Below are positions 4,303 to 7,985 of a DNA stretch of 64,000 nt, piece by piece. Below the pieces are notes generated by a model, which made no database searches, was not told the origin of the DNA, and was given only the letters and a program-made list of their open reading frames with translations. Every line of letters begins with the position of its first letter. The first letter of the stretch is position 1. A program made the position numbers and the translations under genes. This stretch comes from Methanoplanus sp. FWC-SCC4 (GTDB lineage: Archaea; Halobacteriota; Methanomicrobia; Methanomicrobiales; Methanomicrobiaceae): contig NZ_CP043875.1 of NCBI RefSeq assembly GCF_032878975.1, positions 434,001 to 498,000 on the forward strand, written 5' to 3'.

Positions 4303-5058
4303 ATGTATAATAAACGCCGGTGCATAAAAATTAATTCCGATGAATCGGCTGAAACCCAACAGGATCTGGTTGTTGAGGTTCCGGTCACTATCTATGTCAA
4401 TGGAAGGCAGGCCGTAACTGCGATGGCAAGTCCTGAAATGCTAAAAGAGTATGCAACCGGCTTTCTCGTAACCGAAAGCGTTGTCAATAATCCTGATGAG
4501 ATAGAGTCTGTACAGGTGGATGGAACCAAAGTGAGCATCATCACCTTAAATCCAAGAAAGATAATATTCTCTAAAAAAACCGTTCTTTCAGGCTGTGGGG
4601 GTACTGCAACTGTTATTGACTATTCACGCCTTCCTTTTGCACCAAAAGGGAGAATATTTGGGGCAAAAAGGATACAGGATGCCGTTTCTGAGATTAAATT
4701 ATCTGAGGAAAAGAAAGGTGCAGGTGAGATTCAGTACGCAGGGATTTTTTCGGCATCAGATACCATTGCAATAGCAGGGGATATCGGGAGAGACAATGCG
4801 CTCGACAAGTCTATCGGAGCAGCAGTTCTCAAAAAAACTCCGCTGAACGAATGCTTTGCGGTAATAAGCGGGAGAATATCATCTGAAATCGTCAGAAAAT
4901 GTCTTTATGCACAGATACCGGTTATTGTTTCCCGTGGGGCAGCGACATCACTTGCATATGATATAGGACTGGAAAGGGATATGACTCTGCTCGGTCTTGT
5001 GAGCGCTTCGAAGATGATTCTTTATACCGGTGGTCACAGGATTGTGGGGCAAATGTGA
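4303..5058 (+). CDS. fdhD: FdhD-type sulfurtransferase for formate dehydrogenase maturation
   Basis: FdhD passes persulfide sulfur from a cysteine desulfurase to the Mo/W-bis-MGD cofactor of formate dehydrogenase. Length is 251 residues. Family landmarks visible are LKEYATGFLVTE, VLSGCGG, the AGDIGRDNALDK motif, and ISGRISSEIVRKC followed by PVIVSRGAATSLA. Of the CxxC pair in well-studied bacterial members only the first cysteine (C98) is kept; the second position is Thr101. CGGAGAG at 4287-4293 is the ribosome binding site. The next gene downstream carries a cysteine desulfurase domain, which would be the logical sulfur donor. Confidence 0.9.
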   Translation: MYNKRRCIKINSDESAETQQDLVVEVPVTIYVNGRQAVTAMASPEMLKEYATGFLVTESVVNNPDEIESVQVDGTKVSIITLNPRKIIFSKKTVLSGCGGTATVIDYSRLPFAPKGRIFGAKRIQDAVSEIKLSEEKKGAGEIQYAGIFSASDTIAIAGDIGRDNALDKSIGAAVLKKTPLNECFAVISGRISSEIVRKCLYAQIPVIVSRGAATSLAYDIGLERDMTLLGLVSASKMILYTGGHRIVGQM

Positions 5059-5345: not shown

Positions 5346-7985
5346 ATGATACATGACCCTCCTGTAAAAAAAGTATTATACTGGTGTAAAAAGTGCAATA
5401 TTCCCCTTCTTGGAAAAACATGCTCTTGTGGCAGTGAATCCAAAAGTATTCAGCTGCTCAAGCCTTATGAGCTCAGGCCGGCTCTATCAGCGGATCTTTT
5501 GCTCATTAAAACTCTTATCCGGGATAAATTTGGTCCTGTACCATTATCCGGTATAATACTTCTAAACAAATCCGGAGGCGCTGATAGGACTGATCTTGCC
5601 ATAATGAACGGCGAGCGGCTGGGCTGGCTCATATTTGATCCGGTTGAACGAAAATACAGATTTGATATTGCGGTAGAAGCCCTGCCTTTCATCCTAAGTC
5701 ATGTGACTAAGGGCATTGTTGATCTTTATACTGATACAGACCATTCCAAAGGGATGGGGAGGGTTGGCGGAAAAAGATTGCAGCTCACATCCCCTATGCC
5801 AAACGGAATGGTCATTGTAAAATATAAAAATAAATTTGGGACAGGGATCATAAAAGACAATAAAATAAAGGTTAAGGAACTTGTCGCGGTGGAACCGGTA
5901 ACAGTCCCCGATCCAAAGTGGAAAGATGTTATCCAGAAGAACAGAAAACATCTAAAACACCTTGAACATAAGGCAATCAGGACCATAAAGGACCATATCA
6001 ATGACCGTCCCACAGCAAATGTATCATTTTCGGGTGGCAAGGACAGCACAGTCGTTCTTCATCTTGCAAAGAAAGCAGGTGTAACAAAAGCATTTTTCAT
6101 CGATACCGGGCTTGAATTTCCTGAGACAATTGACTTTGTCCGTTCAAAAGGTGTGGAAATTATTGAGAAGGGAGGGGATTTCTGGCAGGCGGTGGAGAGA
6201 GCCGGACCTCCTGCGAAAGACAACCGCTGGTGCTGCAAACTCTTAAAACTGCATCCTCTCAAGGTATATCTCTCTGAAGTGGGCTCTTGTGTCACCATAC
6301 AGGGCAACCGCTGGTATGAGTCATGGAACCGTGCCGGTCTTGAAGAGACCAACCAGAATCCTGCAAATCCTCTCCAGCTTAATATATCCCCGATTCGCAG
6401 CTGGAGGGCACTTGAGGTTTATCTCTATTTGTGGTGGCAGAATCTGGAAATTAACCCCTTATATGAAAAAGGTCTTGAGCGGATTGGATGTTATCTCTGT
6501 CCGGCTATGCTTGAGAGTGAGTATGAAGACCTCCGTATGCTGCATCCTGATTATGCAGAGCGCTGGGATCAGTTTCTTGATCAGTGGGCTGATAAGAAAG
6601 GTCTCCCTGAAGAGTTTAGAAAATGGGGACTTTGGAGATGGCGTGCACTGCCTCCTAAAATGAGGGAGATTTGCAAAGAGAGAGGTATAGAGATCAATTA
6701 CGACTACACCTTAAAGACAGGGCCTGCAAGGGAAATAAGGACAAAAGAACCTGAGGTAATTAAGATAAGGCCTGAGGAGCAGGAGGCAGCTTTGGGAAAA
6801 CCGGCAGGTTACGATGTATCGGTGATACGAAAGGATTTCCCTATTCTAGGGGATGTCACTTATCTGGACAATGCGGCCACAAGTTTTTCACCTGAACCTG
6901 TAGTAGATGCCATAATTGATTTTGAACATAATTACCGTGCAAATATTGGCAGAGGGGTACACCGTCTGACCCAGATATCCTCCCAGCGCTACTGGCATGC
7001 ACATGAAAAGGTTGCAAAGTTTATCGGTGGTGAAAACGGCATAACCGTCTTTACAAAAAATACGACTGAGGCGATAAATATGGTTGCAGGGGGTATCTCA
7101 TGGAATCCGGGAGACAGGATTGTCACGACAGTTCTTGAACACCATTCCAATCTTCTTCCATGGAGGGCGCTTTCAAAACAGGGTGTTATTGTTGATGTAA
7201 TAGGAACAGACTCTTCCTATTCCCCTGACCTTTCTGAATTAAAGAGAGTAATCTGCCCTTCAACAAAACTTGTTGCCGTGACTTATGCGTCCAATGTACT
7301 TGGTGTTGTAACACCTGTCTGTGAGATTGCAAAAATCTGCCATGAAAACGGGATTAAGCTTCTTGTTGACGGTGCACAGGCTGTTCCCCACATGCCCGTG
7401 AATGTCTCGGATATTGGATGCGACTTTTTTGTTTTTTCAGGTCATAAGATGCTTGGACCTACAGGCACGGGGGTTCTCTGGATGAAAGAACCCTCCATTG
7501 AACCATTATTCCTTGGCGGAGGGATGGTTGAGTCTGTTACCAAAGACGGTTTCACCGCAGAGAGTGGTTATAAAAGGTTCGAGGCCGGCACTCCGAATAT
7601 TTCGGGTGGAATTGGTCTTGGGATTGCTGCGGACTATCTTGAAAAGATTGGTATGGGGGCTGTCCGGGAATACGAAGAGACTCTCACAAACAGGCTTATT
7701 GAAGGATTAAAGAAGATACCTGGTGTCACTGTTTATGCACCGGACTGCCCGGAGAATCGTATCGGAGTGGTATCGTTTAATGTTGAGGGTTTTCATCCTC
7801 ATGAAATTGCCCAGGAACTTGATGAAAACGCAGATATTATGGTGCGTTCAGGATTTCACTGCTGTCAGCCGTTGATGGAATATCTCGGGCTTAATGAAGG
7901 AACTGTCCGTGCAAGTATCGGCATGTACAATACCATGCATGAAATTGATCTTTTAATTGCGACAATTGAAGAAATTGTACAATAA
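5346..7985 (+). CDS. Fusion: zinc ribbon, PAPS-reductase-like domain, SufS-type cysteine desulfurase
   Basis: Predicted bifunctional sulfur-transfer enzyme of 879 residues. An N-terminal zinc ribbon has C14, C17, C26 and C28. A PUA-like region follows (about 100-185). The PAPS reductase/ATP-pyrophosphatase domain (about 205-450) has the PP-loop SGGKDS at 229-234 and four cysteines, C296/C297 and C382/C385, able to hold an Fe-S cluster. Residues 490-879 are a complete class V aminotransferase: His599/600, D675 in VDGAQ, PLP lysine K701 in SGHKMLGPTG, and catalytic C839 in RSGFHCCQP. PP-loop plus Fe-S suggests adenylation of a substrate such as tRNA or sulfate and thiolation using sulfur from the desulfurase half; the substrate is unknown. 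It lies 287 bases after fdhD on the same strand. No clear ribosome binding site precedes the ATG. Confidence 0.85.
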   Translation: MIHDPPVKKVLYWCKKCNIPLLGKTCSCGSESKSIQLLKPYELRPALSADLLLIKTLIRDKFGPVPLSGIILLNKSGGADRTDLAIMNGERLGWLIFDPVERKYRFDIAVEALPFILSHVTKGIVDLYTDTDHSKGMGRVGGKRLQLTSPMPNGMVIVKYKNKFGTGIIKDNKIKVKELVAVEPVTVPDPKWKDVIQKNRKHLKHLEHKAIRTIKDHINDRPTANVSFSGGKDSTVVLHLAKKAGVTKAFFIDTGLEFPETIDFVRSKGVEIIEKGGDFWQAVERAGPPAKDNRWCCKLLKLHPLKVYLSEVGSCVTIQGNRWYESWNRAGLEETNQNPANPLQLNISPIRSWRALEVYLYLWWQNLEINPLYEKGLERIGCYLCPAMLESEYEDLRMLHPDYAERWDQFLDQWADKKGLPEEFRKWGLWRWRALPPKMREICKERGIEINYDYTLKTGPAREIRTKEPEVIKIRPEEQEAALGKPAGYDVSVIRKDFPILGDVTYLDNAATSFSPEPVVDAIIDFEHNYRANIGRGVHRLTQISSQRYWHAHEKVAKFIGGENGITVFTKNTTEAINMVAGGISWNPGDRIVTTVLEHHSNLLPWRALSKQGVIVDVIGTDSSYSPDLSELKRVICPSTKLVAVTYASNVLGVVTPVCEIAKICHENGIKLLVDGAQAVPHMPVNVSDIGCDFFVFSGHKMLGPTGTGVLWMKEPSIEPLFLGGGMVESVTKDGFTAESGYKRFEAGTPNISGGIGLGIAADYLEKIGMGAVREYEETLTNRLIEGLKKIPGVTVYAPDCPENRIGVVSFNVEGFHPHEIAQELDENADIMVRSGFHCCQPLMEYLGLNEGTVRASIGMYNTMHEIDLLIATIEEIVQ

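Follow-up and report, generated by a model that had tools for sequence, protein, structure and literature searches.

A cysteine desulfurase fused to a PP-loop/Fe-S protein in Methanomicrobiales: a putative sulfur relay with a link to FdhD

INTRODUCTION

In the BREX type 4 (BREX-4) system, a cysteine desulfurase supplies sulfur and a protein resembling PAPS (3'-phosphoadenosine 5'-phosphosulfate) reductase places it on DNA; BrxP of this system has, in addition, an alpha+beta domain and, after it, a ferredoxin-like region (PMC12839542). In Escherichia coli, the desulfurase IscS hands sulfur to FdhD (PMC6239281). TtuA, TtcA, NcsA and archaeal ThiI are PP-loop ATP enzymes with a cysteine-bound cluster, and they take sulfur from separate donors. 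In the present study we describe a protein of the methanogen Methanoplanus sp. FWC-SCC4 (order Methanomicrobiales) in which a desulfurase and a PP-loop/Fe-S protein are joined in one chain. Its gene lies in a stretch of 64,000 nucleotides (hereafter the window), bases 434001-498000 of a single-contig 2.31-Mb genome. We propose, with a probability that we put at about one half, that the chain is a two-step sulfur relay from the desulfurase to a PP-loop/Fe-S thiolase, probably acting on RNA, and that the desulfurase also serves FdhD.

The fusion as such is already in print. One survey placed it in cluster 536 as a CysH-SufS fusion found in Methanomicrobiales only (PMC11237513), in agreement with our own scan, and another had observed a C-terminal desulfurase domain on putative APS (adenosine 5'-phosphosulfate)/PAPS reductases (PMC6286981). 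Both gave the fusion as a label only, and its interpretation is the new part of the present work.

RESULTS

Domain composition and conservation of the fused chain

The gene is one uninterrupted open reading frame for 879 amino acids with no internal stop (Table 1). Pfam assigned PAPS_reduct to residues 225-387 (3e-36) and Aminotran_5 to residues 505-870 (1e-123), and the chain begins with a zinc ribbon pattern, WCxxC...CxC. AlphaFold, run with an alignment of relatives, gave a mean pLDDT (predicted local distance difference test) of 90 for the N-terminal half and 86 for the whole chain, with two well-folded halves and a disordered segment (residues about 466-487) between them. Across 110 aligned full-length fusions, among them the window protein, the ribbon cysteines (C14, C17, C26 and C28), the SGGKDS motif (residues 229-234) and C296, C297, C382 and C385 were all invariant. 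The desulfurase site was kept almost as strictly, with H600 in 110/110 and both K701 and C839 in 109/110. Thus the reading frame, the Pfam matches and the conserved sites bear out the original prediction of a zinc ribbon, a PP-loop domain with a four-cysteine cluster motif and a complete desulfurase (K701, C839) in a single chain. The predicted order of these three parts is also correct, but a shortened PUA-like segment between the ribbon and the PP-loop domain had been overlooked.

At least 90 of 150 Methanomicrobiales genomes, which are not independent of one another, encode the same chain, as do named isolates such as Methanoculleus sediminis and Methanogenium marinum, the latter being the closest named relative with 82% identity across the whole protein. 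An assembly artefact is ruled out by this recurrence, and the search for the same domain order in other genomes, suggested with the original prediction, was thereby answered positively across the order. When 247 genomes of the phylum were scanned, about 200 of which lie outside the order, no fusion was detected outside Methanomicrobiales.

The C-terminal half is of the SufS type. TIGR01979 (SufS) was the best desulfurase model with 416.7 bits, below its curated cut-off of 475.1, and the Protein Data Bank (PDB) matches were SufS and CsdA, with SufS down to 1e-95. The active-site residues expected of group II SufS are there: the pyridoxal 5'-phosphate (PLP) lysine, the active-site histidine and the persulfide cysteine in RxGxHC. 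The profiles of the phosphorothioation desulfurases DndA and SspA scored 175 and 180 bits respectively.

Origin of the desulfurase half and its link to FdhD

In a quick tree of desulfurases, with the SH-aLRT (Shimodaira-Hasegawa-like approximate likelihood ratio test) as the sole support, all fused domains and a few split or truncated copies formed one clade (SH-aLRT 98), and this clade was nested inside a group of FdhD-linked SufS proteins. The desulfurase half was therefore taken, apparently once, from a sufS-fdhD operon. Such an operon, with a separate sufS followed by fdhD after a gap of about 80 bp, was present in at least 14 genomes among the fdhD matches listed, and Methanolobus and families outside the order have comparable pairs. 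The fused domain thus belongs with the SufS of these methanogen operons, and what distinguishes it, from them and from the E. coli IscS-FdhD pair in which a desulfurase likewise feeds FdhD, is that it is joined to a PP-loop enzyme.

In the window, fdhD lies about 300 bp upstream of the fusion gene on the same strand. Across 46 loci of relatives with at least 3 kb on both sides, 28 had fdhD no more than 3 kb from the fusion, in four gene arrangements; the chance expectation is about 0.7% per locus, and because the loci are related a formal p-value would be too favourable. The FdhD link is genuine: it is far above chance, and it is rooted in phylogeny, since the SufS proteins among which the desulfurase half falls are themselves FdhD-linked. 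The association put forward originally holds in this sense, but it has been lost in several genera and 18 of the 46 loci are without fdhD. Among the fdhD matches listed, no genome had both an fdhD-adjacent fusion and a separate sufS-fdhD operon, which is suggestive. Many Methanoregula have no adjacent fdhD; there, thiM and thiE follow directly downstream on the same strand, as at L046, L047, L048, L049, L052, L069, L089 and other Methanoregula-type loci. As a separate observation, FdhD of the window has a single cysteine (SGCGG) in place of the bacterial CxxC, and CxxC is missing from 97 of 98 FdhD reading frames at these loci.

The notion of an organism without other sulfur donors is not borne out, and a description as a methanogen lacking other desulfurases was rejected: its genome has at least two further intact genes, one IscS-like (L002) and one desulfurase-like (L004).

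The family of the N-terminal half

Two stand-alone relatives of the N-terminal half are encoded in the same genome. L011 (461 aa, class B) shares 50-51% identity with it and adjoins purH and grpE-dnaK-dnaJ, and L009 (496 aa, class C) shares 33% and has a clear PUA domain (1.8e-19); among the good genomes of the order, 53 of 54 have a class C protein. Elsewhere in the phylum, other families encode two paralogs in each genome, of 618-828 aa, with an extra domain and a dicluster ferredoxin, exemplified by the pairs L220-L227. These orthologs exceed the cut-off of the uncharacterized NCBIfam PRK13795 models (NF010366/NF010368), whereas the fusion protein (P0001) stays below it (412 of 745 bits); in control genomes, the ferredoxin and PP-loop parts of NF010368 match everywhere. 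The PRK13795 proteins are homologous to the N-terminal half of the fusion along its full length, and where they carry a ferredoxin part the fusion has the desulfurase. Long Lys/Arg-rich N-terminal tails were seen on several orthologs, and Lys/Arg-rich tails also on relatives without the desulfurase. Clues to function come from both this ferredoxin/desulfurase swap and the basic tails.

BrxP was the top profile among those tested on the PP-loop half with 135 bits, compared with 70 for phosphoadenylyl-sulfate reductase, 60 for APS reductase, 45 for SspD and 24 for DndC, and it scored 132-185 bits on the paralogs and orthologs. The order of PP-loop domain, extra domain and ferredoxin in BrxP recurs in the orthologs from other methanogens, as does the desulfurase/PP-loop sulfurtransferase pairing of BREX-4 in the methanogen family; the fusion contains both members of the donor pair that marks the Dnd, Ssp and BREX-4 systems. 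BrxP, however, belongs to a mobile defence operon and has a DNA substrate, whereas the fusion is part of the chromosomal core, has a zinc ribbon and a PUA-like segment, lacks the ferredoxin and has its desulfurase in the same chain. We infer that a nucleic-acid thiolase related to BrxP is a better description of the family than its annotation as APS/PAPS reductase.

With regard to RNA-binding domains, the zinc ribbon is conserved and PUA is significant in L009 and in the A/B-type ortholog L226, but not in the fusion. In L226, PUA exceeds the gathering score (1.7e-5) where the fusion has its shortened segment. A PUA domain in the fusion was thus rejected by profile and is retained only as a putative shortened PUA-like domain, as the alignment with relatives suggests.

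Sulfate reduction and the PP-loop domain

Searches with Foldseek placed APS/PAPS reductases first among the matches of the PP-loop domain, followed by CysD, FAD synthase, TtuA and LarE. The CC...CxxC cysteines have the layout of APS reductases in an alignment with 2goy/7lhr, so that the fusion shares both fold and cluster motif with CysH, the assimilatory APS/PAPS reductase of its published label. It differs from CysH in its PP-motif: the signature of the adenylating PP-loop ATP pyrophosphatases (SGGxDS) is intact, the fusion having an invariant SGGKDS where the APS reductase 2goy reads SFSGAED. The curated cysH/APS reductase models did not reach their cut-offs (PRK02090, 70 of 154 bits; TIGR02055, 60 of 235 bits).

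APS/PAPS reductases have a catalytic cysteine outside the cluster, in a C-terminal ECGxH. In alignments across classes A, B and C, no cysteine other than those of the ribbon and the cluster was invariant; C443 is present in 102/110 fusions and absent from the paralog L011. Thus no cysteine is left for the S-sulfocysteine (thiosulfonate) step. There is also no sulfate activation in the order: ATP sulfurylase was found in 0/150 genomes, and no CysD-like gene was recognized among the PF01507 matches of the source genome, which are three relatives together with NcsA/TtuA-like and GMP-synthase-like sequences. The PAPS/APS chemistry suggested originally is therefore not upheld.

DISCUSSION

A proposed sulfur relay within one chain

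In the relay that we propose, the C-terminal SufS-type desulfurase, whose catalytic residues K701 and C839 are in place, would strip sulfur from cysteine and hold it as a persulfide on C839. The persulfide may then swing on the flexible linker to the CC/CxxC site of the N-terminal PP-loop enzyme, a putative [4Fe-4S] protein. ATP at SGGKDS would, judging from the motif, adenylate the acceptor, either a base or a carrier, into which the N-terminal enzyme would insert the sulfur. The acceptor would most likely be RNA, held by the zinc ribbon and the PUA-like segment. In many species the same C839 persulfide would also be offered to FdhD, as the gene neighbourhood and the ancestry of the desulfurase suggest. 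The chain arose when one paralog of an old methanogen family was fused, apparently once and within Methanomicrobiales, to the desulfurase of a sufS-fdhD operon. A direct passage of sulfur from the desulfurase to an adenylated substrate, as first predicted from the window, is thus supported as the likeliest mechanism, though an inferred one.

Since ThiI (54/54 good genomes) and one NcsA/TtuA-like gene of the source genome are present separately, s4U8 and s2U34 have enzymes of their own and were rejected as the primary job of the fusion, which leaves s2C17, s2C32 and s2U33 as candidate targets. The archaeal enzyme for s2C32 is given as 'to be determined' (PMC5372739), and s2C17 and s2U33 have been seen in M. 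maripaludis (PMC7668247). We hypothesize that the fusion family is responsible for one or more of these modifications. TtuA, TtcA, NcsA and ThiI differ from it in PP-loop subfamily and cluster motif. A bolder form of the proposal is that the ribbon/PUA/PP-loop-FeS family, of which each methanogen genome in the phylum has two paralogs, contains missing archaeal tRNA thiolases (e.g. s2C17, s2C32, s2U33) and that the Methanomicrobiales fusion is a self-sufficient cysteine-to-tRNA thiolase; this we offer tentatively, as a possibility with the odds against it.

Several observations weigh against the relay on RNA. The closest PDB folds of the PP-loop domain are those of APS/PAPS reductases, and the Methanocaldococcus jannaschii homologs have been reported to reduce APS/PAPS in vitro (PMC10322725, PMC3448663). 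The PUA-like segment of the fusion had no Pfam match, and taken alone it was not significant in profile-profile comparison. The desulfurase half has also been lost, with the N-terminal half retained, in G001, G025, G037, G060 and G091, a count that leaves out some N-only or SufS-only matches at contig ends or frameshifts (L161/G109, L101, L077 and L110). In one Methanomicrobiaceae clade the desulfurase is gone and a basic tail stands in its place. In L132 (L181:15346-18012; genome G002, C7:238848-241481) the N-terminal half is intact and the desulfurase site is destroyed (H599D, H700D, K701R and C839D); a separate sufS-fdhD operon lies 11 kb away on the same contig. From the dead desulfurase of L132 and the clade with domain loss it follows that delivery in cis can be dispensed with.

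Alternative explanations

If the N-terminal half were an assimilatory APS/PAPS reductase as annotated, with the fused desulfurase as an accessory, then the PAPS_reduct match, the fold, the CC...CxxC layout and the reported activity of the M. jannaschii homologs would follow directly, and the ferredoxin of the orthologs would fit a reductase as well. However, one of these homologs, MJ0973, had low Vmax and kcat (PMC3448663), and the survey that described the desulfurase domain itself considered the source of APS/PAPS in these organisms unclear (PMC6286981). Together with the missing ATP sulfurylase and CysD, the intact ATP-type PP-motif, the lack of an invariant cysteine for a thiosulfonate intermediate and a sulfane-sulfur donor that has no role in sulfate reduction, this makes the reductase reading doubtful, and we consider it improbable. 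It is more improbable still that the fusion is a housekeeping enzyme for DNA (or RNA) backbone phosphorothioation, related to BrxP/DndC and with a DndA-like donor attached. The top rank of BrxP among the profiles tested and the Dnd/Ssp/BREX-4 donor pair speak for such an enzyme, but the DndC and SspD profiles are weak, the family is near-universal in the order rather than island-like, and PUA points to RNA rather than DNA. Furthermore, no Dnd, Ssp or BREX partner (DndDE, SspBC, PglZ/BrxL) was recognized beside the window copy, where no profile search for partners was made; the flanks of relatives were compared by clustering, by which few families were identified. Phosphorothioation of DNA was rejected on the weak profiles and the lack of a recognized partner gene.

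Two further readings accept the desulfurase as a donor for FdhD and dispense with RNA thiolation by the relay. In one, the chain would be a sulfur hub for cofactors, in which the desulfurase supplies FdhD (Mo/W cofactor) as well as thiamine synthesis and the PP-loop half activates a protein carrier or cofactor precursor in the manner of ThiI or LarE. The proximity of fdhD, the thiM and thiE genes directly downstream in many Methanoregula and the LarE and TtuA fold matches agree with this, but thiM belongs to salvage, for which no sulfur step is required, ThiI is encoded separately, fdhD is absent from more than a third of the loci, and the PP-loop paralogs and orthologs carry a zinc ribbon and PUA and adjoin other genes (purH-grpE-dnaK, hisH); we regard such a hub as unlikely, though it has the best standing of the alternatives. 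The other supposes that the halves are independent and merely co-produced, the desulfurase for FdhD and the N-terminal half for a separate reaction. A long disordered linker, the dead desulfurase of L132, the clade with domain loss, one fission (L197) and the universal paralog L009, which has no desulfurase, would all be expected from independent halves. The fusion has nevertheless been kept, with both active sites intact, in at least 90 of the 150 genomes, and the same pairing of desulfurase and PP-loop protein is found in the Dnd, Ssp and BREX-4 systems (PMC12839542), so that we judge independence to be scarcely more probable than a reductase.

If the relay is correct, a gene family that is widespread in methanogens has been misannotated as sulfate assimilation in organisms unable to activate sulfate, and methane-cycle models are wrong where they count the family as sulfate reduction. 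The fusion would serve as a Rosetta stone that reveals the sulfur source, sulfane sulfur from cysteine, and hence the function of the family; it would provide candidates for archaeal tRNA thiolations without an assigned enzyme, and the desulfurase serving FdhD in these methanogens would be identified.

FEATURES AND RELATED LOCI

Table 1 Features of the fusion gene and its upstream partner, in positions of the window
Feature	Position	Strand	Basis
Fusion gene, 879 aa: zinc ribbon, PUA-like, PP-loop-FeS, SufS-type cysteine desulfurase	5346..7985	+	Open reading frame, Pfam; kept in relatives
Zinc ribbon, residues 11-30 (C14, C17, C26, C28)	5376..5435	+	Cys invariant in 110/110 fusions, both paralogs and ferredoxin-bearing orthologs
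PUA-like segment, putative, shortened, residues about 123-186	5712..5903	+	In-register alignment with PUA of paralog L009 and ortholog L226
PP-loop domain (Pfam PAPS_reduct), residues 225-387	6018..6506	+	Pfam; AlphaFold and Foldseek; BrxP top profile among those tested
Intact PP-motif SFSGGKDS, residues 227-234	6024..6047	+	Invariant
C296-C297, first half of CC...CxxC cluster motif	6231..6236	+	Invariant; aligns with tandem Cys of APS reductases 2goy/7lhr
C382-x-x-C385, second half of cluster motif	6489..6500	+	Invariant; aligns with GCxxC of APS reductases
Flexible linker, residues about 461-490	6726..6815	+	pLDDT < 50 at 466-487
SufS-type cysteine desulfurase domain, residues 505-870	6858..7955	+	Aminotran_5, TIGR01979, PDB SufS/CsdA matches
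H600, second His of desulfurase active-site EHHSN motif	7143..7145	+	110/110
K701, PLP lysine (SGHK)	7446..7448	+	109/110; lost in L132 only
C839, persulfide cysteine (RSGFHCCQPL)	7860..7862	+	109/110; lost in L132 only
fdhD, sulfurtransferase/chaperone for formate dehydrogenase, upstream partner	4303..5058	+	Pfam FdhD-NarQ, 5e-53

Some related loci depart from the common arrangement. At L197 (genome G029, C2:317395-319955) each half has its own gene, one next to the other and in different frames; nested in the fusion clade, they represent a fission (or frameshift) after the fusion. L159, L160, L162, L163 and L164 are class A proteins without the desulfurase and with a Lys/Arg-rich C-terminal tail; there is no desulfurase remnant downstream of them. 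The ferredoxin-bearing pairs L220-L227 have a layout like that of BREX-4 BrxP, and L225 among them has a basic repeat, ASRNPDNK, at its N-terminus.

Outside the window, an IscS-like gene, L003 (G000:C1:509295-510380), adjoins an IscU-like gene; its PLP lysine motif reads SSNDMYG and its PLP aspartate position HVNAT, and it is probably a desulfurase that has lost the cofactor and kept the cysteine loop. Across the order, the class B paralog L011 (G000:C1:1515335-1516693) is flanked by purH on one side and grpE-dnaK-dnaJ on the other, and in L050 the fused gene holds that place, an arrangement which suggests where the fusion arose.

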